Shown here piece after piece: positions 2,618 through 46,644 of a stretch of 54,933 bases of DNA (the first letter of the stretch is position 1; every line of letters begins with the position of its first letter). The DNA comes from Sinomicrobium pectinilyticum (GTDB taxonomy: Bacteria; Bacteroidota; Bacteroidia; Flavobacteriales; Flavobacteriaceae), in assembly GCF_003725735.1 (NCBI RefSeq), contig NZ_RJTM01000012.1:1-54933 (forward strand), given 5' to 3'. The position numbers were made by a program, and so were the translations under genes. A model generated the notes under the pieces. It was not told the origin of the DNA and searched no databases. It saw nothing but the letters and a program-made list of their open reading frames with translations.

Positions 2618-3640
2618 ATGAATGAGTATTTGGATCCTACAGGCGACCATTTCTCTCCGGAAGAGATCGATATAGAAAAAACGCTGCGGCCGCTTTCTTT
2701 CGATGATTTTGCCGGGCAGGACCAGGTATTGGAAAACCTTAAGGTCTTTGTGAAAGCTGCCAACCTTCGCGGGGATGCCCTGGACCATACCCTGTTTCAC
2801 GGTCCGCCGGGACTTGGAAAAACCACGCTGGCCCATATCCTGGCCAACGAACTGGGCGTAGGGATAAAGGTGACTTCCGGCCCCGTGCTGGACAAACCCG
2901 GTGACCTCGCCGGATTATTGACCAACCTGGATGAAAGGGATGTACTTTTTATAGATGAAATCCATCGCCTGAGCCCTGTGGTAGAGGAATACCTGTACTC
3001 GGCCATGGAAGATTACAAGATTGATATTATGATAGAGAGCGGGCCCAATGCACGTACCGTACAGATCAATCTTAACCCGTTTACCCTGATAGGGGCGACC
3101 ACGCGTTCCGGCCTGCTGACATCTCCTATGCGCGCCCGTTTCGGTATTTCCAGCAGGCTGCAATATTATACGACCGAACTTTTGTCTACAATAGTAGAAC
3201 GCAGTGCCCATATACTTAAGACCCCCATCACAATGGAAGCTGCAATAGAAATTGCAGGCCGGAGCAGGGGGACACCCCGTATAGCCAATGCCTTATTGCG
3301 CAGGATACGCGATTTTGCACAGATCAAAGGCAACGGAAATATTGATATCGAAATTGCAAGATTCGGGTTAAAAGCACTCAATGTGGATGCTTACGGACTG
3401 GATGAAATGGATAACAAAATACTTTCTACCATTATAGATAAGTTTAAAGGAGGCCCCGTGGGAATCACCACCCTGGCAACTGCTGTTTCCGAGAGTGCGG
3501 ATACCATCGAAGAGGTATATGAACCCTTCCTTATCCAGCAAGGATTTATTATGAGGACCCCCCGTGGACGTGAGGTTACCGAGGCAGCCTACAAGCATCT
3601 TGGCAGGACCAAGGGCGGCTTTCAGGGGGAGTTGTTCTGA
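2618..3640 (+). CDS. ruvB: Holliday junction branch migration DNA helicase RuvB
   Basis: AAA+ motor of the RuvABC complex that drives branch migration of Holliday junctions in recombinational repair. The protein is 340 residues from ATG 2618. Walker [10 protein letters not shown] sits at residues 62-70, Walker B FIDEIH at 111-116, and sensor/arginine-finger elements GATTRSGLL and RARFG follow. The C-terminal winged helix ends with [17 protein letters not shown] prefer ATG 2618 over the upstream TTG at 2588 because family members in this phylum begin MNE(N/Y)LDPT. ruvA and ruvC are not adjacent, which is normal in this phylum. It stands alone between the oxidase gene and a TonB receptor. Confidence 0.97.
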
Positions 3641-3741
3641 AAATTACCTCCCGGTGTTATTGGTCTCTTCCTTTTTAATATGATAGCGTATTGTTTACAT
3701 TAATTTAATTCCTACAATACAATCGCATAATGCCCCCCTTC

Positions 3742-3749
3742 TATTTTTG
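3742..3749 (+). promoter_or_regulatory. -7 box TATTTTTG upstream of the TonB receptor
   Basis: TAnnTTTG match 28 bases before the ATG at 3778, a normal distance for a short 5' UTR. No clear -33 TTG. Confidence 0.45.
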
Positions 3750-3777
3750 CTCCTCATAAACCTGAATCCTATCTTAT

Positions 3778-6700
3778 ATGAAATCTATTCCTCTACTATT
3801 GCTGTTGTGGCTGGTATATCCGGTGTTCACGATAACAGCACAAACAACCCATGCCATTATCGAAGGGACTGTCGTTGACCATACTTCCGAACCCCTGATG
3901 GGAGTTTCCGTAATGGTGAAGAACGAATCCACGGGGTTTTCAACGGCTACCATAACCGATATGAACGGTAAATACAGTATTAAACAGCTTCCGCTCGGAA
4001 AACCTTATACGATCACTGTTTCTTATCTCGGTTTCGGCACCCAGACCAGGACGGGATATGAACTGAACCAGGGCGATGCCCTGCGGGTGGATTTTAAAAT
4101 GGAAGAATCTGCGGAGGCACTCGATGAAGTGGTGGTGTCTGCCTCCGAATTGAAGAATACGATAAAGAATTTCGGGGCGGCCACATCGGTGACAGCCCGC
4201 GATCTCCAGAAATTACCCGTAAACGGGCGTAATTTTACTTCTTTGATAGACCTGTCCCCGCTGAGCACGGGCAACAGCCTCTCCGGACAATTGCCTTCGT
4301 CTACAAATTTTACGGTAGACGGTATGACGGCACGAAACCCTACATCCGGGGGTACTGCAAATCGTCGCGGTGGCTCGTATGCCATTTCCATGGAGGCCAT
4401 TCGTGAGTTCAAAGTCTCGACGAACCAGTACGATGTCACCTACGGAAGAAGCGGAGGGGGCTCCATAAATACAGTCACCAAATCCGGTACCAATACCCTG
4501 ACAGGAAGCATTTTTACCTTTGCCCGTACCGACTGGTTATCCAGTCCGAATGATATTCGCGGTAATAAACGCGATGAAGACTTTTCATCTTACCAATACG
4601 GTTTTTCTCTCGGGGGACCGATCATTAAAGATAAAATGCACTTTTTTGTGGCATGGGACCACCAGGAAGATACCAATCCGTTGCAGATTGCCGATATACG
4701 TACCCCGGAAGACGAACGCAGGTATAACGTATCGCAGCAATCCCTCGACCGTTTTCTTGATATTGCGCGCAGTAAATACGGTGTGGCCGATTCTCCGCAG
4801 TTTGGTTCTTTCAACAGGAAACGGGGAACAGATGCCGTCTTTGCCCGTATCGACTGGCAGTTGAATGAAAAGAACCTCCTGACGCTCCGTAACAATTATG
4901 TTTTTGACCTTAACCGAAGGGGGATTTCGGACAACAGTAGTATCAACTTGTATGAAGTGTACGGTAATGTACGTACGACGGACAATAGTTTTCTGGCTTC
5001 CCTGCGCTCCGAACTGAACCCGAAAATGACGAATGAACTGAAGTTTCAGTACCTGAGGACATCGGAAAGTGCTTTTCCCGGAGACCAGATACCTTCGGCG
5101 AATATTCCCCGTGCCATTGTAGAGCGGGTGCAATCCCAGGTAAACGGTAATGATGTATTTACCACCATTCAGCTCGGGGGACAGCGCTATATTCCGGAAT
5201 CATTCTACAACAATGTGTTCCAGCTCGTGGATAACCTGTATTACAGCACGGATAAAATAGATTACACTTTCGGGATTGACCTGATGTATACACATATGAA
5301 GTCCGTGTACGGAAGTGAGATGAACGGAAGGTTCTATTTTACCGGACTGGATGATTTCGAAAACCTGGACCCTTATCGCTATGTGCGGGAAGTAAACCTG
5401 ATGAACGATCCGGCGGTAACACAGAATATCATCGCAACCGGTGCCTATGCCCAGATGCAGACCAACCTTTTTCCCGGATTTGAGTTTATGGCCGGTATCC
5501 GGGCAGACTATACCAATTACATGGATAAGCCGAATTTTAATGAAATTGTCTATGAGGATCTGGGGCTTCGTACCGACAAAAGCCTTACCACATTTCAACT
5601 TCAGCCCAGAATACAGGCTACATGGGATATCGGGGAAAGGCAAAAAGATATCTTGCGGTTCGGTGCCGGAATTTTCGGAGCGGATATCAATAATTATGTG
5701 ATGATAAACAATATGGTATTTGACGGTACCCGCGTAGCATCCGTGGATATTAACCGCAATAATGTGGATATTCCTACTCCCGACTTTCCGGGATACCGGG
5801 CGGATCCTTCCACGGCCCCTGGAGCAGAAATACTCGAAGAGCTCGGTATTACTCCTATCAATACCATAAATATGAACGGAGACGATGTAAAAATACCAAC
5901 ACTTTATAAAGCCAACCTTTCCTATAACCGCTTTTTTACCGATCGTTTTAAAATGGGACTGAGCCTTTATGCATCCTTTGCGAGGAATAATTACATGTAC
6001 ACCGATGCCAATATGGTGGATGATCCTTATTTTCGTTTGGCTAACGAAGGGAACCGCGGCGTATATGTGCCGGCCAGTACCATTGACCCTTCCAACGGAG
6101 CTGCAAACTGGGCCGAAGGAAGGAAAACGGACAGGGTAGGACGTGTATTGAAACTGAACAGTGACGGAAAGGTAAACAACTACGCTGTTGTACTGGACGG
6201 AACATATCAATATTTCGAGGACGGCATATTGTCGTTCAGTTATACCTGGAACGATACCAAAGACAACACCAGCTTTAACGGGGATGTGGCCAATACGGCA
6301 ACCCTAGTGACCATGACCCCCGGTGACCCGAGAGATCTGGGGCAGATGAATTATTCCAACAATCATTTTCGTCATAAACTGGTCTTGTATGGCTCCCTGC
6401 CCACCTTTCACGGTTTCAGTCTTTCTTTCCGCTATTCCGGATTTGGGGGAACGCGTTATTCGCTCATTGTTAATGGTAACGTAAACGGGGATTTCGTAAG
6501 CTCCAATGACCTGGCCTATATCTTTGATCCCGGTAATCCCGAAACGCCCGAAGCATACAGGGACGGTATAGAACAAATATTGAACAACCCGGAAGCCAGT
6601 GAACACCTGAAAGATTATATCCGGGACAGTTACGGAAAGATTGCCGGAAGGAACGGAGGGGTTAATGATTTCTTCGGGACCTGGGACGTAAGCCTCAGGA

Positions 6701-6942
6701 AAAGGTTCAATACCTTTAAATCCCAGTATGTCGAACTGTCTGCCGATGTATTTAACCTGGCCAATATGCTCAATAAAAAGTGGGGAGCGCGTAAAACCCT
6801 TGGCAACCAGAATATCTATTCGATAGGAGGTTTTGATACGGATTCCAACACTTATAATTACAATGTCAATCCCAATACCGGGGTGGCATCACCATCCGGA
6901 AACCCTTACCAGATACAGCTGGGTATCCGGTATGGGTTCTGA
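3778..6942 (+). CDS. TonB-dependent outer-membrane receptor, Oar-like
   Basis: Large (1054 aa) outer-membrane beta-barrel of the type energised by TonB-ExbBD. A signal peptide covers about residues 1-21 (cleavage after TITA). A carboxypeptidase-regulatory-like beta-sandwich occupies about 27-110, then DEVVVSAS opens the plug domain (about 118-235, with VDGMTARNPTSGG and YDVTYGRSGGGSINTVTKSG). The long barrel ends with an aromatic terminal strand, IQLGIRYGF. The length, the NGRNFTSLIDLSP segment and the plug wording resemble the Oar/OmpA-related subgroup, not the SusC subgroup, and no SusD partner follows. The substrate cannot be inferred. Confidence 0.9.
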   Translation: MKSIPLLLLLWLVYPVFTITAQTTHAIIEGTVVDHTSEPLMGVSVMVKNESTGFSTATITDMNGKYSIKQLPLGKPYTITVSYLGFGTQTRTGYELNQGDALRVDFKMEESAEALDEVVVSASELKNTIKNFGAATSVTARDLQKLPVNGRNFTSLIDLSPLSTGNSLSGQLPSSTNFTVDGMTARNPTSGGTANRRGGSYAISMEAIREFKVSTNQYDVTYGRSGGGSINTVTKSGTNTLTGSIFTFARTDWLSSPNDIRGNKRDEDFSSYQYGFSLGGPIIKDKMHFFVAWDHQEDTNPLQIADIRTPEDERRYNVSQQSLDRFLDIARSKYGVADSPQFGSFNRKRGTDAVFARIDWQLNEKNLLTLRNNYVFDLNRRGISDNSSINLYEVYGNVRTTDNSFLASLRSELNPKMTNELKFQYLRTSESAFPGDQIPSANIPRAIVERVQSQVNGNDVFTTIQLGGQRYIPESFYNNVFQLVDNLYYSTDKIDYTFGIDLMYTHMKSVYGSEMNGRFYFTGLDDFENLDPYRYVREVNLMNDPAVTQNIIATGAYAQMQTNLFPGFEFMAGIRADYTNYMDKPNFNEIVYEDLGLRTDKSLTTFQLQPRIQATWDIGERQKDILRFGAGIFGADINNYVMINNMVFDGTRVASVDINRNNVDIPTPDFPGYRADPSTAPGAEILEELGITPINTINMNGDDVKIPTLYKANLSYNRFFTDRFKMGLSLYASFARNNYMYTDANMVDDPYFRLANEGNRGVYVPASTIDPSNGAANWAEGRKTDRVGRVLKLNSDGKVNNYAVVLDGTYQYFEDGILSFSYTWNDTKDNTSFNGDVANTATLVTMTPGDPRDLGQMNYSNNHFRHKLVLYGSLPTFHGFSLSFRYSGFGGTRYSLIVNGNVNGDFVSSNDLAYIFDPGNPETPEAYRDGIEQILNNPEASEHLKDYIRDSYGKIAGRNGGVNDFFGTWDVSLRKRFNTFKSQYVELSADVFNLANMLNKKWGARKTLGNQNIYSIGGFDTDSNTYNYNVNPNTGVASPSGNPYQIQLGIRYGF

Positions 6943-6993
6943 TGAAGATACGGTGTTTTCTGGCTGTATTTCGGATAATTGTGGCGAAGTAAG

Positions 6994-7001
6994 TATCTTT
7001 G
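6994..7001 (+). promoter_or_regulatory. -7 box TATCTTTG upstream of queG
   Basis: TAnnTTTG match 24 bases before the chosen queG ATG (7026). It implies a short 5' UTR and argues against the TTG at 6999 being the start, since that codon would lie inside the promoter box. Confidence 0.45.
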
Positions 7002-7025
7002 TCCCGTCCGCAGAGAACACAACAC

Positions 7026-9012: not shown

Positions 9013-9296
9013 AAAAATCTCATTAACGAGAGGCTTTCTACACAAAATCTCTTACGGCATGTATAAGGAGCAATAATACAAAAGAAATACATTTTTTGGT
9101 ATCTAAAAAATAGATATTCAATAAAATATACCTTCTTATATTCCAAATGTGTTATATTTTTTATTTTGAGGATGTTCCGTTTACAGGCAAAAAGGACTAT
9201 CCCATTACCTCCAGAACAGGAAAGCTGGTATAGGAATGTCTTTTCGGGTATGTTTTTTACATCTATGGGACTGTAAAAGGCAAATAATGGCCCTGC

Positions 9297-32244: not shown

Positions 32245-35200
32245 TTATTCCACAGGTTGTTGTTCCGCAGGCGGCTCCATAATTTCCAGGGAGTCACTGG
32301 CCGGCCCGTTATAGGATTGTTCCAGGCGGTCCAGATAGCTGTTAAAAATATCCGTCTGTTTTTTTCCGAAACCTTCTTCATCATTTTCAACTACCACATC
32401 CAGTACGCTTCTGTAACGCTGGATATCATAAATGATATTTTCCTGCGACACATAGGCCGTTCGGGAAGAGAGATAATAGGACAGGTTTTCCTGGTATTTT
32501 CCGGCTATTTTCAGGAATAACTCCCTTGCTTTTTCGGTTTGCCCGGTTTTGTAATAACCATTTACATAAGGTTCCAGAAAGACATAGTACCCGTAATATT
32601 CGAATGGAAACTGTTCCATGGCCAGATCGATAATTTCCCTGGCTTTTTCTTTCTTGCCTTCATCTAAGAGGGTATCCGTGAGCCGGGCCATATTACTACG
32701 GTACGAAATACTGTTCTTACGGGTTTCGGGATCATGATATATATCCGGAGAACCGGAATTTCCCCAGGCCCATTTCTGAACAATGTCGTACATAAGGTCA
32801 CTGTCAATTCTTCCCATCTCAAAGTTCCCCTGTTCTCCCGGGGTTTTAATAGGCACCAGTTTATAAACCATGCCGTCGAGCTGGAGGTAATCTTTCATCC
32901 AGATATATTCTGCGGCTGCAAAACTCCCTCCGGTAAAGTAAATAGGACGTTTCCAGTCATTATTGGCAAGGATGTCCAGCATCATCATCCTGTTCTTGCC
33001 GATAGCGTTTTTCGGGAGGTCTATATCTATGTAATCCACAATAAGGGCACTGTCTTTCTCTTTTACCAGTCCGCTTTTGAGTACATTTTCCTTGTTGACG
33101 GGTATCCTTATTTTATTGGTCGGATAGAAGATGGTACTCTTGGTGTTTTCCGGATACTGCCGTACGTCTCCTCCCTGTCTTTTTATGAGGTTTCCTATGG
33201 TATTTTCGTCATTGGCTACCCAGTCCATAAACCTTTTTATATCCCAGCGTTCGTCTGTAAGTTGCTGGTAGTAAATAGCATCCCTGACCCCATAAGCGTA
33301 TTGTGCATGGGTGAGTTGCGAAGGAATGGGTTCGCTTTCATATGCCTTTCGTTTCATCTGGTCAATATACCAGTCCGTAGCAAAGAGGCTGGAGTTTATG
33401 ACTCTTACATCGGTGCGATGCCCTTCGATCTCCTGGATATACCACAGGCCGAAAGTATCATTGTCCCCGATAGAGAATATAATGGCGCCGGCATCTTTCT
33501 GGATAGAGTTGAGGTAATTCCTGGCAATGGCTTCGGCCGTATACCTGCCGGAGCGGTCGTGGTCGTCCCAGTTCTGGTATGCCATAACCGCCGGAACGGC
33601 AAGAAGGCATACGGCGGTAACAACGGGGGCGAGTATTTTGGGGGCGAGCCATTTTTTAAATTCTTCATACAGGGCAAAGACGCCGATACCTATCCATATC
33701 GCAAAGATGTAGAAGGAACCCACCAGCGAATAATCCCTTTCCCGGGGTTCGAAAGGCCTGACGTTGGTGTAAAACTGAATGGCTATACCCGTAAACATGA
33801 AAAACACGAAGAGTGTCCAGAATTGCTTCGGATTTCGCCGGATCTGAAAAATCAGTCCTATAATGCCAAGGATCATCGGCAGAAAGAAATAGGTATTCCT
33901 CGCTTTATTGTTCAGTTCATCCGAAGGCAGGTTATCCTGCGGGCCGAGATGCCATTCGTCTATGAATTTAATACCGCTGAGCCAGTTACCGTGATTGTCC
34001 ATTTTCCCCTGGATATCATCCTGGCGTCCCACAAAGTTCCACATAAAATAACGCCAGTACATATACCCGAACTGATACCGGAGCATAAAGCCTATATTGT
34101 CGGACAATGCAGGCGGATCCACATCGATATACTGGCCGAACTGCTGAAGAAAGTTCACATAACCGTCTTCGTCTATCCTGCCGTTGGCATAATCGGTCCG
34201 GAACTGGTTAATGGCATTTTTCAGGTCGGAATTGGAAAGATATTCCGATTTTATCCGGAAATCCAGCGGCCTGGTAAGCCTCATGTAATTGGCTGCGTGC
34301 TCGGAACTCCACATCCGGGGCAGCAGGCCCACGTGTTTGCTGTTGGCATTCGGCAGAGAATTTTCATAATGGTTTACAATCACATATTTCCCTGTTTTCT
34401 TGTCCTGTTCGTATTTGGGTTTATCGTCTTTATAGGGGTCTTCCGGGTCCTGTCCGGCAAACATATCGGAATACATAGCCCCGTAAACCGGGCTGTCAAC
34501 ACCGGGGTATTGCTCCCTGTTGTAGTAAGCCAGGAGTGCACGGGCATCGGCCGGATCGTTTTCGTTAATCGGGGTGTGGGCATTTGCCCGGATGGGCAGC
34601 ATCAGCCAGGAAGAAAAACCGATAAACATGAACAGGAAACAAAGGGTAATGGTATTGGCCAGGTATAACCTGTTTTTACGTGTGTAATTAAGGGCAAAAT
34701 AAAATATCAGTATAAATATAAGTCCCATAATGATACTTCCCGAATTGAAGGGCAGCCCTATGGTATTTACAAAGAAAATCTCGCTCCACCCGAAAAACTT
34801 CAGGACGTAAGTAAGTGAAAATTTATATATCAGAAGCAGGATGGCAACGACTATAATATTGGCGAGCAAAAAATTCTTTACCGTAGTGGTTTTATAATTT
34901 TTAAAATAGTATAACAGGCCTATGGTAGGGATAGCCAGAAACCCCATAAACTGTACACCGAAAGTCATTCCGGTTACAAATGCTATAAGGACCAGCCATC
35001 GGTCTCCACGCGGGGAATTCAGTTCGTCCACCCACTTGATACCCAGCCATAACAGGAGGGACATCAGTAAGCTTGCCATGGCATAAACCTCGGCTTCTAC
35101 CGCATTGAACCAGAAACTGTCGGAAAAAGTATAGGCCAGGGCCCCTACGGCACCGCTGCCCAGGATGGCGATGGCTGCCGGGCGGGATATTTCTCCTTCG

Positions 35201-35526
35201 CCGAAAGCCATTTTTCCGGCGAGGTTAGTAATGATCCAGAATAAAAAAAGTATGGTGAAGGCACTGGAAAGTACAGACATACAATTGACCATCAAGGCTG
35301 TATATTCCGTTCCGGGGGCAAACATGGCGAAGAACGCGCCCAGCATCTGAAAGAGCGGTGCCCCGGGAGGGTGCCCGACTTCCAGTCTTGCCGAAGTTGC
35401 TATGTATTCTCCACAATCCCAGAAACTTACCGTGGGTTCAACGGTGAGCGCATAAGTCAGTAAAGCGATGGCAAATATGATCCATCCGGTTATAGTATCC
35501 CATCGTTTAAATATGTCTGTCGTCAT
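32245..35526 (-). CDS. DUF2723 (GT117-type) polytopic membrane protein, copy 1
   Basis: A 1093-residue protein with about a dozen membrane segments in the first 600 residues, a soluble domain and TPR-like helices at the C-terminus (KAREIIDLAMEQFPFEYYGYY). The family signature TVEPTVSFWDCGEYIATS is at 28-45 and VGHPPGAPLFQMLG at 50-63. DUF2723 proteins are related to GT-C protein O-mannosyltransferases (TMEM260 relatives); in this phylum they are likely envelope glycosyltransferases. Copy 1 has Q192 in GVQFMGFLAIP where copy 2 has H192. It lies 77 bases downstream of copy 2 on the same strand, so both form a tandem pair. Confidence 0.9.
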   Translation of the reverse strand: MTTDIFKRWDTITGWIIFAIALLTYALTVEPTVSFWDCGEYIATSARLEVGHPPGAPLFQMLGAFFAMFAPGTEYTALMVNCMSVLSSAFTILFLFWIITNLAGKMAFGEGEISRPAAIAILGSGAVGALAYTFSDSFWFNAVEAEVYAMASLLMSLLLWLGIKWVDELNSPRGDRWLVLIAFVTGMTFGVQFMGFLAIPTIGLLYYFKNYKTTTVKNFLLANIIVVAILLLIYKFSLTYVLKFFGWSEIFFVNTIGLPFNSGSIIMGLIFILIFYFALNYTRKNRLYLANTITLCFLFMFIGFSSWLMLPIRANAHTPINENDPADARALLAYYNREQYPGVDSPVYGAMYSDMFAGQDPEDPYKDDKPKYEQDKKTGKYVIVNHYENSLPNANSKHVGLLPRMWSSEHAANYMRLTRPLDFRIKSEYLSNSDLKNAINQFRTDYANGRIDEDGYVNFLQQFGQYIDVDPPALSDNIGFMLRYQFGYMYWRYFMWNFVGRQDDIQGKMDNHGNWLSGIKFIDEWHLGPQDNLPSDELNNKARNTYFFLPMILGIIGLIFQIRRNPKQFWTLFVFFMFTGIAIQFYTNVRPFEPRERDYSLVGSFYIFAIWIGIGVFALYEEFKKWLAPKILAPVVTAVCLLAVPAVMAYQNWDDHDRSGRYTAEAIARNYLNSIQKDAGAIIFSIGDNDTFGLWYIQEIEGHRTDVRVINSSLFATDWYIDQMKRKAYESEPIPSQLTHAQYAYGVRDAIYYQQLTDERWDIKRFMDWVANDENTIGNLIKRQGGDVRQYPENTKSTIFYPTNKIRIPVNKENVLKSGLVKEKDSALIVDYIDIDLPKNAIGKNRMMMLDILANNDWKRPIYFTGGSFAAAEYIWMKDYLQLDGMVYKLVPIKTPGEQGNFEMGRIDSDLMYDIVQKWAWGNSGSPDIYHDPETRKNSISYRSNMARLTDTLLDEGKKEKAREIIDLAMEQFPFEYYGYYVFLEPYVNGYYKTGQTEKARELFLKIAGKYQENLSYYLSSRTAYVSQENIIYDIQRYRSVLDVVVENDEEGFGKKQTDIFNSYLDRLEQSYNGPASDSLEIMEPPAEQQPVE

Positions 35527-35603
35527 AAACCTGGTTTTCTCTGAAAAGGCGAATTTAATAATTATTCGGTATATAAGGCGGGTTTTTATCTATTTAAAGG
35601 TTC

Positions 35604-38600
35604 TTACAGTTTCCCCGATTGCCTTGACAGATAATCGTTTTCCATACGGTCGAGGTAACGGTTAAATGTTGTGGTCTCTTCTTTTCCGAATGTTTCCCCG
35701 TCATTTTTAACTACAATGTCCACCAGTGCCCTGTAACGCTGTATGTCAAACAATATGTCTTCTGCCGTAATAAGCGGATGGTTACCTGAGGTCAGGTAAT
35801 AATCCAGGTTTTCCCGGTATTTTCCACTGGTCCTGCGAAAGAGGTCCCGGGCCTTTCCGGTTTCTCCTGCCTGATAATATCCTTCGATAAATGGTTCCAG
35901 GAAAGTGTAATACCCGTACTTGTCGGGCGGCATCTTCCGCATTGCCAGATCCATGATCTCAACGGCTTTATCCTTTTTATTTTCCCGTAACAGGGTTTCT
36001 GCCAGGCGTGCCATATGTACGCGATAGGAAATACTTCTCCTGCGTATAATGGAGTCGTGATAAATCCCTTCCTTATCAGAATTGCCCCAATCCCATTTCA
36101 TAACTTTATCATACATAAGTTCACTGTCAATCCTGCCCATTTCAAAAGGATTTTCTTTGGATACGGGAGTTTTGATGGGAACGAGTTTATAGACCAGTCC
36201 GTCGAGCTGCATATATTCCGGGAGCCACAGGTAATCTGCCGGGTCAAAACTTCCCCCGGTGAAATAGATGGGCCGTTTCCAGTCGTTATTGGCAAGGATA
36301 TCGAGCATCATCATCTGGCTTTTGGTTATGCCTCCCTGTGGCAGATCTATGTCTATATAGGCCGTGATAAGGTGCTCATCATTGCTTTTAACCAGCCCGG
36401 TGCGCAGTACGTTTTCTTTATTTACCGGAACCCGGATTTTATGGGTGGGATAAAAAACGGCATTCCGGACGACTTCCGGGTATTGCTCCGGGGAACCGCC
36501 CTGACGGCGTATGAGGTTTTCCATGGTATTCCGGTCATTGGATATCCAGTTCATAAAGCGTTTGATATCCCACCGCTCTTCCGTAAGCGGTTGATGATAC
36601 AGTATATCTCTTGTTCCGTATACATATTGGCTGTGTATGAGTTGAGACGGAACAGGGCTGCTTTTATGTGTTTTTCGTTTCATTTGGTCTATATACCAGT
36701 CCGTAGCAAGATAACCGGGATAGACTACCCTTACATCCGTACGGTGTTTTTCCACTTCCTGGGCATACCACATGCCGAAAATATCATTTTCTCCAAGGGT
36801 AAATACGATGGCATCGGCGTCTTTCTGAATGGAGTCGAGCGTATTTCTGGCCATGGCACGGGCAATATAGCGGTCGGACCTGTCATGGTCATCCCAGTTC
36901 TGGTAGGCCATAACTACCGGTACGGCTAGCAGGCAGGCTATTTTCAGGGCAGGGGCCAGTACTTTCGGCCGGACTGATTTTCGAAGGCCACTGTACAGGG
37001 CAAAAACTCCCATACCTATCCATATGGCAAATACATAGAAAGAACCTACCAGGGAATAGTCGCGTTCTCTGGGCTCAAAGGGACGTACATTGGTATAAAA
37101 TTGTATTGCAATGCCGGTAAAGAGGAAAAACACAAAGAGTGCCCAAAAGCGTTTGGGGTCCTTTCGTATCTGGAAAAGTAATCCCGCCAGTCCCAAAAGG
37201 AGGGGAAGAAAGAAATAGGTATTACGGGCCTTGTTGTTCAAAGCATCCGAAGGCAGGTTATCCTGGGAACCGATCAATTTCTCATCTATGGCCTTTATGC
37301 CGCTTATCCAGTTGCCATTATTGTCCATTTGCCCCTGAACGTCGTTCTGACGTCCGGCAAAATTCCACATAAAATAGCGCCAGTACATATAACCGAACTG
37401 GTATCGGAACATGAATTTCAGATTGTCCCATAAGGCAGGCGGATCCACATCTATATAAGGTGCCAGCTGTTGCAGGAAATTTACATAGCCTTCTTCGTCG
37501 ATCTTGCCCGTAGTATAGTCCGCTTTAAACCGGTTTATGGTATCTTTTAATTCTTTGTGGGAGATATATTCGGGTTTGATGCTGAACTGTAACGGGCGGG
37601 AGAGTTTCATATAATTGGCTGCGTGTTCCCTGCTCCACATCCTGGGCAGGATATTTACATGACGGCTGTTAGGAGCCTGGAGGGCATTTTTATAATTATT
37701 GACAATTGCGTAATTTCCTGTTTTCTCATCCCGTTCGTATTTTGGTTTGTCATCTTTATAAGGCCGGTCCGGGTCTTTATCGGCAAACATGTCAGAATAC
37801 ATGGTGCCGTAGAACGGGGAATTGGCATCTCCGTATTGTTCCCGGTTGTAATAAGAGAGCAGGAGACGCGCGTCCGACGGGTCATTTTCGTTAATGGGTG
37901 TATGTGCATTTGCCCGTACAGGCAGCATAAGCCAGGAAGAGAAACCTATACACATTAGCAACAGGCAAAGTACTACAGTGTTGGCTCCGTATAATTTTTT
38001 CCGCCTGGTATAGCGGAGCGCAAAACAGAATAATGCGATTATTGCAAGTGCCGTAATAACACTGCCGGAATGAAACGGAAGTCCGGTGTGATTCACAAAA
38101 AATATTTCACCCCACCCGAACAGTTTTAAGGTGTACGTGAGGGAAAACTGATAGACGAGAATAAGGATAACAACCGCAAAGAGGTGGGCTGTTATGAAAT
38201 TTTTAAGGGTAATAGCCCGGTATTTTTTAAAAAAGTACAGAAGAACAATAGAGGGAATGGCAAGAAACCCCATGAAGTGAAGTCCGAATGCCATACCGGT
38301 GATAAGTGCTATCAGTAATAGCCATCGGTTTCCCCGGGGAGAGTGCAGGTCGTCGGTCCATTTTAGTCCCAGCCATAGCAACAGGGACATGAGAAGACTG
38401 GCCATAGCGTAAACTTCGGCTTCCACCGCACTGAACCAGAAGGTGTCGGAGAACGTAAAGGCCAGAGAACCTACGATACCACTACCCAAAATGGCAATAG
38501 CGGTTTCTGCGGATATTTCTCCGTTCTTTATGGCGATCTTTTTCACCAGGTTAGTGATGACCCAGAACATAAACAAAATGGTAAAAGCACTGGACAGTAC

Positions 38601-38852
38601 TGAGATATAATTGACAGCCAGGGCAATGTCTTCTGGCCCGGCGGCAAACATGGCAAAAACGGCCCCGAGCATTTGAAAAAGAGGGGCTCCCGGAGGGTGC
38701 CCTACCTCCAGTCCGGAAGAAGTGGCTATATACTCGCCGCAATCCCAGAAACTTACCGTGGGCTCTACCGTAAGCCCGTACGTAACTAAAGCGATAAGGA
38801 ATACAACCCATCCGAGAAGGGTATTCCAACGATTAAAAGTAGTTGTAGGCAT
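35604..38852 (-). CDS. DUF2723 (GT117-type) polytopic membrane protein, copy 2
   Basis: A 1082-residue paralogue of the downstream gene, collinear with it over nearly its full length. The motifs TVEPTVSFWDCGEYIATS and VGHPPGAPLFQMLG occupy identical residue numbers (28-45, 50-63), and GLHFMGFLAIP keeps the family His at 192. Several blocks, such as YTNVRPFEPRERDYSLVGSF and ANNDWKRPIYFTGGSF, are the same in both copies, showing tandem duplication. It is first in the two-gene unit and probably drives transcription of both. The predicted role is glycan transfer from a lipid carrier to envelope proteins; no substrate evidence is visible. Confidence 0.9.
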   Translation of the reverse strand: MPTTTFNRWNTLLGWVVFLIALVTYGLTVEPTVSFWDCGEYIATSSGLEVGHPPGAPLFQMLGAVFAMFAAGPEDIALAVNYISVLSSAFTILFMFWVITNLVKKIAIKNGEISAETAIAILGSGIVGSLAFTFSDTFWFSAVEAEVYAMASLLMSLLLWLGLKWTDDLHSPRGNRWLLLIALITGMAFGLHFMGFLAIPSIVLLYFFKKYRAITLKNFITAHLFAVVILILVYQFSLTYTLKLFGWGEIFFVNHTGLPFHSGSVITALAIIALFCFALRYTRRKKLYGANTVVLCLLLMCIGFSSWLMLPVRANAHTPINENDPSDARLLLSYYNREQYGDANSPFYGTMYSDMFADKDPDRPYKDDKPKYERDEKTGNYAIVNNYKNALQAPNSRHVNILPRMWSREHAANYMKLSRPLQFSIKPEYISHKELKDTINRFKADYTTGKIDEEGYVNFLQQLAPYIDVDPPALWDNLKFMFRYQFGYMYWRYFMWNFAGRQNDVQGQMDNNGNWISGIKAIDEKLIGSQDNLPSDALNNKARNTYFFLPLLLGLAGLLFQIRKDPKRFWALFVFFLFTGIAIQFYTNVRPFEPRERDYSLVGSFYVFAIWIGMGVFALYSGLRKSVRPKVLAPALKIACLLAVPVVMAYQNWDDHDRSDRYIARAMARNTLDSIQKDADAIVFTLGENDIFGMWYAQEVEKHRTDVRVVYPGYLATDWYIDQMKRKTHKSSPVPSQLIHSQYVYGTRDILYHQPLTEERWDIKRFMNWISNDRNTMENLIRRQGGSPEQYPEVVRNAVFYPTHKIRVPVNKENVLRTGLVKSNDEHLITAYIDIDLPQGGITKSQMMMLDILANNDWKRPIYFTGGSFDPADYLWLPEYMQLDGLVYKLVPIKTPVSKENPFEMGRIDSELMYDKVMKWDWGNSDKEGIYHDSIIRRRSISYRVHMARLAETLLRENKKDKAVEIMDLAMRKMPPDKYGYYTFLEPFIEGYYQAGETGKARDLFRRTSGKYRENLDYYLTSGNHPLITAEDILFDIQRYRALVDIVVKNDGETFGKEETTTFNRYLDRMENDYLSRQSGKL

Positions 38853-42582: not shown

Positions 42583-42930
42583 CATAATCTCTCTTGTTTT
42601 TAGCATGAAGATTGAAGTATAAGGGGCATAAATTCAGTATTTTATATCTTGTGGTGATATTCCTAAGATAGCTTAAAGCAGAAAAAAGCGATTCTCAAAA
42701 AAAGTACTCGGCGAGGGCTGGTTTATAAATAAAGACCGTTCCTCTTAAACAATGGCCGCTTTGGTGCCATCATAACCGCAAAAGGCCGATGATAGCCTGT
42801 GATGAAATATGGGTGCGGTAATTTTTGAAAGTCCGTGAAATAGGGTACTGTATTTTTTTGACTGCACTTACGGATTTCCATAAGGGAAACCGGGAATTTG
42901 TGATTAAATTAGCCTTGCTGCTTAACCGAC

Positions 42931-43021
42931 CCTTACTGCTCACGGTGTGATGTATTGCTTTTACCTGGAGCTGTTGTCCTGACTTTTATATACAACCGGT
43001 CTTAATCATCAGTCATCAATG
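42931..43021 (+). repeat. terpene-locus leader repeat, copy A
   Basis: Contains CCTTACTGCTC (42931-42941), a 25-base gap, GGAGCTGTTGTCC (42967-42979) and an ATG 40 bases later (43019-43021) that opens only a 7-codon frame. Copy B precedes terpene synthase 2 with the same two blocks and an ATG at nearly the same distance. In copy A the real start of terpene synthase 1 is 99 bases further on. Confidence 0.6.
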
Positions 43022-43119
43022 CCCAAGAAATTTTCCGGGTAATATTCCTGCTTTTTTTTTGGCAGACAGTCCCTAAAAACCATGATGAATACCCATCCTT
43101 AATTTAAACCCATTTCACC

Positions 43120-44136
43120 ATGAACAAGCAATTCGAAGTACCCATGCCGGTATATCCCTGGGCAACCCCTCAGAGCCCGCTCAGCGGCATTTTCTATGAA
43201 GAAGAAAGTAACTGGTATGACCAGGATTATCAATTTCTGTCGCCAAAGGCGCGGGAGACCTATAAAAAAATGCGATTGGTCGACGTAGGGTCCTATATGG
43301 CCCCTACGATTCTCGACAAAGAAAAAGTACTTTCCTTATCGCGTTATGTAATTTACATGACGGTGACAGACGATTATGTGGAAATTTTACCGGTAAAGGA
43401 GATCGCGGCTTTCAGGGACCGGATCTTTGAGGTTATGATGGGCGATGATCCCAAGCCGGAAGAAAAAGGGATTCTTCGTCAAATGCAAACCGGCAGAAAA
43501 GAATGGATCAGGTTCGGGATGCCCGACTTCTGGATCGAACGGATGGCCAGAAACTACAGAGATCGCTTTATAACGGATGGGATCATGGAAGAGTCGCCAT
43601 ATAAGATCAGTAAAGAGCTCCCCCCGATCCCTCTCTTTCATTTGATCCGTGCCAATTCTATCGGCATGATCCCGTTTATAGAACAGGTCAGTCTCTTAAC
43701 CGGTTTTGCCTTACCTGATAACATTTATAACCATACTGTTGTTCAGCGCCTGGTATTGCTACAGGCTATTATAACTGCGCTTCAGAACGATTTTGCAACC
43801 ATCGGAAAAGAGCTGTCGATAGAAACCGAGACTTTCAACATCATTATACTATTACAGCATCACAACAACATATCTTTTGAAGAAGCCTGTAAGGAGGGAA
43901 TGAAGATGCATGACGAGTTTGTAGAGGAATTTGTAACCCTAATAGACAATCTGCCGGATTTCGGTCCGTACCAAAAAGAGGTCGAAGCGTATTTTTATTA
44001 CGTAAAACTAATGGTCAGCGGTTTAAATGCCTGGTATTATAAAAGCGGAACCCTGCGATATGAACCCGGCGGATATCCGTCACCGCCAAATGGCAAAGGC
44101 GAAACGATCCCACGGGTAAAAATCAAACATTATTAA
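43120..44136 (+). CDS. class I terpene synthase 1
   Basis: A 338-residue protein with all hallmarks of a bacterial class I terpene cyclase, which ionises a prenyl diphosphate and cyclises the cation. Asp-rich motif DDYVE at 84-88, pyrophosphate-sensor R177 in LIRANSIG, NSE triad NDFATIGKE at 223-231 (N223, T227, E231 with K230) and a C-terminal RY pair at 313-314. R177 is exactly 46 residues before N223, the known spacing. A Trp/Tyr-rich N-terminus (VPMPVYPWA) is also typical. Chain length (C10, C15 or C20) cannot be predicted. It is the first of three tandem paralogues; no prenyltransferase lies near. Confidence 0.88.
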   Translation: MNKQFEVPMPVYPWATPQSPLSGIFYEEESNWYDQDYQFLSPKARETYKKMRLVDVGSYMAPTILDKEKVLSLSRYVIYMTVTDDYVEILPVKEIAAFRDRIFEVMMGDDPKPEEKGILRQMQTGRKEWIRFGMPDFWIERMARNYRDRFITDGIMEESPYKISKELPPIPLFHLIRANSIGMIPFIEQVSLLTGFALPDNIYNHTVVQRLVLLQAIITALQNDFATIGKELSIETETFNIIILLQHHNNISFEEACKEGMKMHDEFVEEFVTLIDNLPDFGPYQKEVEAYFYYVKLMVSGLNAWYYKSGTLRYEPGGYPSPPNGKGETIPRVKIKHY

Positions 44137-44461
44137 CCCGCGTTGTCCCTGAACTTTGCACAGTCCCATGCTTCGGTCTGTGATGTTTCCCTGAAATTAT
44201 GTCCGTTATATGGTGCCGTACTTTTCCGTTCATCCTGCCGGGGATGGTTGGCAAAATTGTAAATAGTTCCGTTAAGGAGGCTGTACCTGCAGTTTATGGA
44301 AATCCGTAAGGTATTTCCGGAATATAGGTTTAATTTTATGTGGAAAGGAACACCGCTTATGGTTTCCAGATCATTGATCCTTACTGCTCGTTATCCGGCA
44401 TTTTTTCGTTTTGCCGGGAGCTGTTGTCCCAGTCTTTTAACCTGTCTCAATACCTCTTATT
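44137..44461. other. 325-base gap between terpene synthases 1 and 2
   Basis: Holds leader copy B near its right end and otherwise no gene. No terminator hairpin is evident after terpene synthase 1. Confidence 0.5.
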
Positions 44462-44464
44462 ATG
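44379..44464 (+). repeat. terpene-locus leader repeat, copy B
   Basis: CCTTACTGCTC (44379-44389) and GGAGCTGTTGTCC (44417-44429) repeat copy A with a 27-base gap. The ATG of terpene synthase 2 (44462) follows 33 bases later. Confidence 0.6.
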
Positions 44465-45460
44465 AACGTCAAGGAAATTCTTCAAACCGGATTCCGTTAT
44501 CCCTTTCCCTGTTTTAAAAACCCATATGCGGACGCCCTGCAATACATTACGGATACAGAATGGATAGACGGCACTTATCTTTATCTTTACGAGGACCGTG
44601 AAACCGTACGAAAAAAATATAAAAAGACCCGTACGGCCCATATTGCCTCGCACTGGTTTCCCACTGCGAGCCACGAACGCTTCCGGCCCGTTTGCCTGCT
44701 CATGCTCTGGACGCTGTATAACGACGATATGTACGAGGAGATCACCCCTGCGGAATTGCCGGATATCCGCGACCGTTCCCTCGCCGTGCTCCGCGGAGAA
44801 ACGGAAGGCGCAACCGCCGCAATTCCCCTCGGACCATTACTGGCGTCTCTCCGGGAAGAACTTTTGCGGTATATTTCCCCGGCTTCTTACGGTCGTTTCG
44901 TCGCCATGATAGAACGCTATTTTAATGGCCTGGAAAAAGAACTGACATACAAGGCAGAGCACAGGTATCCGGGGATTGACGAATGCCTGGCCATACGCGA
45001 AGATTCCCTTTGCCTGTACCCCTTTTTACAGCTTACCGAGATCGATACCGGGATTGCCCTTCCCGATGAAATTCACGAACATCCTTCGCTGAAACGCTTA
45101 CAGGCCCTGGCCAGCCGGATGATGCTCTTGTACAATGATGTGCAGTCCCTGATTAAAGATCAGCTTACCGGGGGTGTCTATTATAACCTGGTAAAGGTCA
45201 TAGAATATCAAAAAGGAGTCTCCTTTGAGGCGGCCTGTGCCGAAGACATCCGTATGCATAACGAAGACCTGAAGGAATTTTTAATGCTGCAGCGCAACCT
45301 GCCCGATTTCGGGGAGTGGCATAGTGCTGTGGTTAACTGGGTACACTATATGAGCATTACCCTGAGCGGGTGGAAGGCCGTGTCTTTCAATATGGCCCGT
45401 TACAATACGGCAACGGGATTTCCCTCGGTGGAAACTATTAAGCAGGGGGCGCCAACCTGA
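44462..45460 (+). CDS. class I terpene synthase 2, variant NSE motif
   Basis: A 332-residue paralogue of its neighbours. The Asp-rich motif is NDDMYE at 87-92, the pyrophosphate-sensor Arg is R179 in LAIREDSL (46 residues before the NSE Asn) and the RY pair is at 313-314. The metal triad reads NDVQSLIKD at 225-233, so the last ligand is Asp instead of the usual Glu. The enzyme lacks the conserved VPMPQYPW-like N-terminus, having FRYPFPCFKNP instead. GC content is higher than in terpene synthase 1. An altered metal site may still work, since Asp keeps the carboxylate, but activity is uncertain. The start ATG directly follows the leader repeat. Confidence 0.82.
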   Translation: MNVKEILQTGFRYPFPCFKNPYADALQYITDTEWIDGTYLYLYEDRETVRKKYKKTRTAHIASHWFPTASHERFRPVCLLMLWTLYNDDMYEEITPAELPDIRDRSLAVLRGETEGATAAIPLGPLLASLREELLRYISPASYGRFVAMIERYFNGLEKELTYKAEHRYPGIDECLAIREDSLCLYPFLQLTEIDTGIALPDEIHEHPSLKRLQALASRMMLLYNDVQSLIKDQLTGGVYYNLVKVIEYQKGVSFEAACAEDIRMHNEDLKEFLMLQRNLPDFGEWHSAVVNWVHYMSITLSGWKAVSFNMARYNTATGFPSVETIKQGAPT

Positions 45461-45663
45461 CCGGTTTATGATCCGTTTGTGGTAAAAAGATTTCAGGAGA
45501 TGAATTAATCACCAACATAAAGTTGTGCGCAATGTTCTCAAGGAAGTAAAAGCTCAATTCAAATCAGAAAGCAGAAGATTTATTTTGGCATGCTATAGAT
45601 CAGTTTATCATATAGGTTGTTGAAAAATTTACGAATCACCGGTGATTATAACATGTAAACAAC

Positions 45664-46644
45664 ATGAAACAACAGGTTAACATTCCAATCCCGCAATACC
45701 CATGGCTTCATGCCGTGGGCCCTTTTGCCGGTTCGTTTAACGAGGAGGAAATTCAATGGATAGATACGGATTACGCCTTTATGTCGGAGGATACCCGTAA
45801 AATGTATAAGAAGCACGCACTGGCCGAGGCCACATCCTATCTGTTCCCTGCTGTCGGAAACATGGAACTGCTGCGTCCGTTTGTACGGTTTATGCTTTGG
45901 CTAACGAAATTCGACGACTATTATGAACTCTGTCCGCGTCATGAGCTCCGGGGAATCCGGGACCATGTCATAGACGTCATGCTGGGGGCGCCTCCCGAAA
46001 AAGACGATATCGGATTAGTGCGGTAGGTGGCCCTGAGCAGGGATGAGTTCAGACCTTATGCCGACGATTACTGGTTTGAACGGTGGGCCAAAGGTTTTTA
46101 CCGTTATATCACCTATGGTGTTATGGAAGAAACGCCTTATAAACATTCCGATCGGTACCCTACGGTTGATAACCTCCTGATGATCCGCGAGTATTCCATC
46201 TCCATGTATACGTTCGGAGAACCCGTGGAGCTCTCCATAGGCTATATCGTACCACGACACATTTCCGAACATCCGGTCATAGAACGGTTAAAAGCTCTGA
46301 TGTGCCGTATTATCGCTATCCAGAACGATCTTGCTTCCCTCCGTAAGGAGCTGGATATCGAATCGGAAAAGCTCAATATTGTAATCGTTCTGCAACATGA
46401 GCACAACATATCATTGGAAGAAGCCTGTAAGGAAACGATGCGGATTCACGACGACTATGTAAACGAACTGGAACGCCTCCATAAGGGTCTTTCTCACTTT
46501 AGTTTTTATGATGAGAACGTAGAGAAATTCATATACCATATGAAACTGATGATTTCCGGGCTGGGAGTGTGGTCTTACAAAGGGCATTCCGTACGGTATG
46601 CCGGTTCGAAAAACTTTCCTGTTCCCGAATATGGAAAAAACTGA
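45664..46644 (+). pseudogene. class I terpene synthase 3, interrupted by one in-frame TAG
   Basis: A 326-codon frame closely related to terpene synthase 1. Asp-rich motif DDYYE at 84-88, sensor R175 in LMIREYSIS, canonical NSE triad NDLASLRKE at 221-229 and a C-terminal VRY pair are all intact. Codon 121 (46024-46026) is TAG where terpene synthase 1 has Gln (RQM against R-stop-V), so a single C-to-T change from CAG explains it. There is no frameshift and no other stop. The stop separates the Asp-rich half from the NSE half; a GTG follows directly and could restart translation. Either a recent nonsense mutation, a sequencing error, or stop readthrough. Confidence 0.85.

Follow-up and report, generated by a model that had tools for sequence, protein, structure and literature searches.

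A terpene synthase array with a predicted CjCS-type diterpene synthase and putative two-component control in Sinomicrobium pectinilyticum

Chryseojoostene synthase (CjCS; WP_076356785) from Chryseobacterium joostei converts geranylgeranyl diphosphate (GGPP) into diterpenes and is active alone, according to the 2025 paper describing it (PMC12535395). The paper names the oddity of residue D238 and probes the residues I66, M86, L90, I188, C189 and L190. The I188L variant gave the most chryseojoostene E of all the variants tested, the D238E variant showed a lowered productivity, and the authors saw no gene cluster. Other class I terpene synthases (TPS) from Chryseobacterium, the wanjudiene, chryseodiene and polytrichastrene synthases, also use GGPP (PMC7383580, PMC8518897); CjCS is 27% identical to the wanjudiene synthase and 26% identical to the polytrichastrene synthase (PMC12535395). 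Here, we analyzed three adjacent TPS frames, named copies 1, 2 and 3, in a 54,933-nt stretch of Sinomicrobium pectinilyticum (NZ_RJTM01000012.1), hereafter the window, to which all positions refer unless another locus is named. Based on the observed gene content, motifs, active-site fingerprint, tandem pattern and site distribution, we propose, with a probability of about 70%, that this locus is a terpene array with a CjCS-type diterpene synthase, a co-inherited partner and two-component control.

The three frames, of approximately 330 codons each, are carried by the forward strand and span positions 43120-46644 (Table 1). An earlier note, made from the letters of the window alone, had read them as three class I TPS, and the profile search bore this out: against PF19086 (Terpene_syn_C_2; curated cut-off of 23.7 bits), we obtained scores far above the cut-off for copy 1 (80.1 bits), copy 2 (116.1 bits) and copy 3 read across its stop (117 bits). 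The collinear motifs announced by the same note were all present in the three frames. The DDxxE motif was found at residue 84 in copy 1, 88 in copy 2 and 84 in copy 3, and the NSE motif at residues 223 (NDFATIGKE), 225 (NDVQSLIKD) and 221 (NDLASLRKE), respectively. The sensor Arg, at residues 177, 179 and 175, was each time exactly 46 residues before the NSE Asn, and an RY pair was located near the C-terminus at residues 313, 313 and 311. The same four motifs are reported for the wanjudiene and chryseodiene synthases in PMC7383580. Copies 1 and 2 were rightly called intact in the earlier note, whose finding does not state the stop codon of copy 3. When copy 3 was split at this TAG, the part after the stop scored 99.3 bits to PF19086 and the part before it had no PF19086 match by itself. 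Stop aside, copy 3 is collinear with its motifs complete, and an intact relative in genome G001 (L057 9634-10629) is 65% identical overall (58% and 69% over the two parts). The TAG may be a real mutation or a sequence error. By sequence, the nearest solved structure was the 10-epi-cubebol synthase (PDB 7zrn; E = 1.3e-21 for copy 2 and 3.5e-13 for copy 1), which shares the class I TPS domain with both copies; going by its name, it is a sesquiterpene synthase, and its similarity to the copies is weak.

Table 1. Coordinates of the features at the terpene synthase locus (positions in the window).
Feature	Position	Strand	Details
Copy 1, intact class I TPS, partner class c4	43120..44136	+	338 aa; DDYVE, NDFATIGKE, RY
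Copy 2, intact CjCS-type TPS (clade B), predicted GGPP diterpene synthase	44462..45460	+	332 aa; last residue of the NSE motif is Asp
Copy 3, TPS of class c3, interrupted	45664..46644	+	326 codons; in-frame TAG at 46024-46026
Operator-like near-palindrome TTAYGGA-AA-TCCRTAA (reverse orientation)	42868..42883	-	236 bp before copy 1
Second operator-like near-palindrome	44294..44309	+	152 bp before copy 2
Leader element CTTACTGCTC...GGAGCTGTTGTCC	42927..42980	+	also at copy 2 and in some other array leaders of the genus
Second copy of the leader element	44375..44430	+	CCGGCA/TGCCGG inner hairpin

We searched named genomes with copy 2 alone as the query, blind to the neighboring genes, and recovered 52 loci in Chryseobacterium, Chitinophaga, Dyadobacter, Pedobacter, Taibaiella, Flavobacterium and Parapedobacter. 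In the tree, the clade of copy 2 (clade B; FastTree support of 96) contains 57 members: 51 from the named loci, 4 from the genus Sinomicrobium including the window, and 2 from further genomes, one of these being the same protein as a named member; some genomes contribute more than one locus. The last ligand of the NSE motif was Asp in all the 57 clade-B proteins, compared to Glu in 102, Lys in 4, Asp in 1 and Gly in 1 of 108 other TPS. At the seven CjCS positions discussed in the 2025 paper, the fingerprint IML[I/L]CLD was carried by 57/57 clade-B proteins (49 with Ile, 8 with Leu) and by none of the 108 other TPS. The reading is IMLLCLD in copy 2 and likewise in the remaining three intact copy-2-type genes of the genus, and neither copy 1 (VVTIGME) nor copy 3 (AMTISME) carries the fingerprint. 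Six of the seven residues of copy 2 (I, M, L, C, L and the unusual Asp of the NSE motif) are thus those of CjCS at the positions named in PMC12535395; the seventh, at position 188, is Ile in CjCS and Leu in copy 2, as in the published I188L variant. Copy 2 is therefore expected, on the basis of these residues, to be a GGPP diterpene synthase and a natural variant of a known enzyme. We also considered clade B as a group of non-catalytic pseudo-enzymes, given the Asp of the NSE motif. This reading was rejected because CjCS, which bears D238, is active alone and is less productive as D238E (PMC12535395).

We infer the substrate, products, promoters and regulator of the array as follows. Copy 2 would bind GGPP and the Mg cluster via the DDxxE and NSE motifs, with Asp as the final ligand of the latter, and would ionise the diphosphate to yield polycyclic diterpene hydrocarbons. 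Judging from the published mutants, its natural Leu at CjCS position 188 would lead to more chryseojoostene E; this offers a direct way of testing whether natural enzymes behave as the published active-site mutants suggest. Copy 1 would be an independent canonical class I synthase, the old co-inherited partner of copy 2, and would probably also use a C15-C20 diphosphate from a prenyl synthase encoded elsewhere in the genome. Copy 3 would be another synthase that has since been interrupted. The site shared by the upstream regions of copies 1 and 2 would be the target of a two-component response regulator. Concerning the precursors, no prenyl diphosphate synthase, P450 or methyltransferase was detected among the 10 flanking frames scanned, as the earlier note had indicated. 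Its suggestion that precursors come from elsewhere is consistent with the two PF00348 genes of the genome, both on other contigs. The best NCBIfam scores of the first were with short-chain and GGPP synthase models, and those of the second with short-chain models, followed by heptaprenyl and octaprenyl ones, all below the curated cut-off.

We then analyzed the genomic context of the clade-B genes. Counting TPS frames of at least 150 codons, some of which are fragments or lie several kb apart, the 52 loci contained two (28 loci), three (15), four (5), six (1) or seven (3) of them; in one locus (L150), the copy-2-type gene is broken. Another TPS was present in the fetched locus for 56 of the 57 clade-B members, with the nearest TPS end within 250 bp in 50/57 and within 600 bp in 53/57, and one partner, in Dyadobacter, at 7.6 kb. 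The sole member without a TPS partner is a gene of the S. pectinilyticum genome on contig C219, which has a partner remnant. The nearest other TPS was downstream of the clade-B gene in 54/56 cases and on the same strand in 54. Copy 2 itself is not the first gene of its array, and its nearest counted TPS is the interrupted copy 3, at 203 bp, with copy 1 at 325 bp on the other side.

A similar pattern was observed in 118 separately drawn genomes of a Chryseobacterium-type genus, whose species likely overlap with those of the named loci. Copy 2 had matches in 48 of these genomes. Among the matches listed, 48 copy-2-type places covered at least 300 query residues (one with a stop) and 45 of them had a same-strand TPS within 1.2 kb downstream; after fetching, the count was 46/48. 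The two lone relatives, G754:C44 (L198 9769-10833) and G704 (L199 9632-10639), had no TPS neighbor in the fetched 20-kb stretches and belong to a divergent type with the fingerprint IMFVCLD. Two broken copies fell outside the 48 places, one frameshifted and without neighbor (G771) and one in pieces beside a TPS (G685). At least 13 genomes had matches of which none was of the copy-2 type, 11 of them with a single match, again among the matches listed. In the genus Sinomicrobium, 9 of 13 non-B TPS genes had no TPS neighbor in the stretch fetched. Overall, CjCS-type genes rarely stand alone. A literature search that reached few subscription papers gave no report on TPS genes arranged in tandem or in pairs for these bacteria, and the tandem context of CjCS-type enzymes is new here. 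It gives this enzyme type a genomic context and indicates which second enzyme to co-express.

The earlier note had called a tandem triplication of terpene cyclases unusual in this phylum. The rarity holds for the TPS family itself, since PF19086 TPS were found in 3/299 genomes of the family Flavobacteriaceae and in 5/395 genomes of a phylum sample in which at most seven candidates were scored per genome, the source genome being counted in both. By contrast, tandem arrays are the rule with the copy-2 type, 24 of the 52 related loci having at least three TPS frames. In the phylum sample, the other two genomes with several matches both hold a tandem array (a pair in G501 and a triple in G567).

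We next examined how stable the association is between clade-B genes and their partners. With TPS classes (c1-c22) defined by a chosen tree-depth cut-off, the nearest partners of the clade-B genes belong to 11 classes. On the clade-B tree (56 labelled proteins), the partner class changed at least 24 times, compared to 24-29 times (mean 27.8) in 200 label shuffles. The observed value equals the lowest shuffle, which suggests a slight phylogenetic signal and much exchange. In the subset below 95% identity (42 proteins), we counted 22 changes. Within classes, the distances between clade-B proteins correlated with those between the class members of the same loci, with r = 0.62 (n = 33), 0.55 (n = 14), 0.58 (n = 13) and, for the class of copy 1, 0.92 (n = 7); these values were reached by 0, 0, 3 and 1 of 1000 permutations, respectively. 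Taken together, the correlations and the class changes suggest that pairs travel together for a while and that partners are swapped over longer times.

These results also suit an explanation in which the linkage has no biochemical meaning: blocks of TPS genes would travel, and the clade-B gene would provide the homology by which other TPS are gained or lost. The partner class changes (at least 24) and the co-inheritance of blocks fit such a genomic anchor, as do the TPS relics on C219 and the interrupted copy 3. The downstream position of the nearest TPS in 54/56 cases and the frequent solitude of other TPS are left unexplained by it, and we regard it as a serious but tentative possibility.

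To place the array in its genome (5.65 Mb), we scored all the PF19086 genes. Nine were over the cut-off: the three copies of the window, a pair on contig C18 in the order copy-2-like then copy-1-like, one copy-2-like gene on C219, and singles on C112, C123 and C32. A one-module polyketide synthase (KS-AT-DH-carrier-thioesterase in Pfam) directly follows the C18 pair (L050 12307-17064). Contig C219 also has TPS remains: a degraded relic of the copy-2 type (64% over 126 residues) and a partner TPS remnant of 32 residues (69%, E = 3e-11) that immediately precedes the intact copy-2-like gene. The relic (L048 2205-3060) and the remnant (6910-7005) flank an adenylation-carrier-reductase gene (3515-6571) resembling nonribosomal peptide synthetases (NRPS-like). 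Among the six genomes of the genus, three had PF19086 genes (9, 7 and 1) and three had none.

The putative control of the array rests on a 16-bp near-palindrome, TTAYGGAAATCCRTAA, common to the upstream regions of copies 1 and 2. Genome-wide, seven sites had at most one mismatch to TTACGGAAATCCGTAA: two lie at this locus and two at a two-component operon on contig C15, and single sites precede the C18 pair, the C219 relic and an NRPS-like adenylation-reductase gene on C198. When up to two mismatches were allowed, we obtained 21 matches for the site pattern and 8 for the reversed pattern. The C15 operon (L080 9397-12031, with sites at 9213 and 12427) encodes a protein with TPR and HATPase domains and a weakly matching response regulator (L080 9397-10122), whose NCBIfam matches (UhpA, RcsB and similar) were all under the cut-off and for which the PDB gave no match at 1e-3. 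This putative regulator was found in four of the six genomes of the genus, including the source, the other three being 72-82% identical. Counted against a consensus with either centre, the site precedes the kinase gene in all four operon genomes (0, 0, 0 and 1 mismatch), and it follows the regulator gene in three of them (0, 0 and 1 mismatch); the fourth, G002, has 3 mismatches there, no better than other matches in the stretches compared. The exact site was missing in the two genomes lacking the regulator and in G002, whose upstream site has a different centre. The same site is thus present at the regulator's own operon and before its candidate target genes, as in a regulon, and we predict from these patterns that the array is controlled by the C15-type two-component system. 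A literature search gave no relevant match for the site core, and we saw no description of two-component control of such arrays in the searches made. The site and the two-component system would offer a handle for switching on a possibly cryptic array.

Several observations weigh against the proposed array with a CjCS-type synthase and two-component control. The CjCS likeness of copy 2 was judged only by the residues named in the paper. Copy 2 is 56-61% identical to members in other genera, so its products may differ, and the CjCS host itself gave no diterpene in culture (PMC12535395). Regarding control, the match of the C15 regulator to Response_reg (E = 2.2e-4) was below the cut-off, the three single TPS genes of the genome had no site within one mismatch, and G002 lacks PF19086 genes although it carries the two-component operon. 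In the 52 named loci, the operator was missing from up to 450 bp of upstream sequence (less than 150 bp in two loci) with 3 mismatches allowed, and the regulation is therefore genus-wide at most. Furthermore, a degenerate site occurs in 32/299 genomes of the family, and in G005 the site precedes genes without a visible link to terpenes; the presence of the site alone thus proves little. The G005 sites are located at L095 3192 and 11339, L093 7094, L097 6406 and L098 6995, and one of the genes appears, by eye, to encode a molybdopterin oxidoreductase.

The array could also be decaying and silent. The stop in copy 3, the degraded clade-B copy and the 32-residue partner remnant on C219, and the lack of any PF19086 gene in three of the six genomes of the genus would agree with this explanation. 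We consider it improbable, as copies 1 and 2 are full length with complete motifs and each is preceded by an intact operator-like site.

It is equally doubtful that the association forms a functional pair, with a fixed CjCS-type synthase, a partner swapped among at least 11 classes, and a two-component control in the genus Sinomicrobium that includes NRPS-like genes. If true, it would imply a shared complex, a shared intermediate or a fixed product blend. Quite unlikely is an obligate pair, in which the CjCS-type enzyme and its variable neighbor would act jointly, either in a heteromer or by passing an intermediate from one to the other, the constant member being the common half of many synthases. 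Such a pair would account for the TPS found near clade-B genes (56/57 and 46/48) when other TPS are often alone (the 11 single-match non-B genomes, at E = 1e-5, and the 9/13 non-B genes of the genus), for the altered active site of the two lone relatives (IMFVCLD), and for the NSE motif ending in Asp in 57/57 proteins. No partner is needed for catalysis, since CjCS is active alone on GGPP (PMC12535395). In addition, the partner class changes almost as frequently as under label shuffling, which fits poorly with a tight specific interface, and a literature search on heterodimers and bacterial terpene synthases, judged by titles, found no such enzyme.

Finally, we compared the copies with each other and with their closest relatives. 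Copies 1 and 2 are 27% identical, copies 1 and 3 41%, and copies 2 and 3 32%. For copy 1, we found 74% identity with the C18 paralogue of the same genome, 73% with Chitinophaga ginsengisegetis and 72% with Chryseobacterium populi; for copy 3, 65% in G001 and 60% in Chitinophaga rupis; for copy 2, 80-85% within the genus. A recent triplication in place, as the earlier note proposed from three adjacent TPS frames on one strand, is thus practically untenable, since the identities (27-41% between copies, 65-85% with kin elsewhere) indicate that the copies are old. Copies 1 and 2 are one old pair of a CjCS-type synthase and its partner. The identities to Chitinophaga (73% for copy 1 vs 59% for copy 2) had suggested that copy 1 was recently acquired next to an older copy 2; this was dropped because a similar ratio (0.75 vs 0.58) exists in other deep pairs and the distances of the two proteins correlate (r = 0.92, n = 7).

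The leaders of copies 1 and 2 also share an element (Table 1). This locus holds the only two exact occurrences of the 12-mer GAGCTGTTGTCC in the genome, and the element, in the form CTTACTGCTC...GGAG[C/T]TGTTG, is present in seven TPS leaders from two species, among which the inner hairpins differ. Position 42931, at which the locus had been said to start, falls within the leader of copy 1, approximately 190 bp upstream of its ATG. The element is a possible regulatory RNA. We do not claim it as a structured RNA, as the single match of an Rfam scan of the window at gathering score was a tRNA and the consensus fold of the seven leaders gave a weak outer stem alone. Elsewhere in the window, at 32245-38852, a frame of 1093 aa lies next to one of 1082 aa; the two are 69% identical and have the look of a tandem duplication; by eye, they encode membrane proteins.

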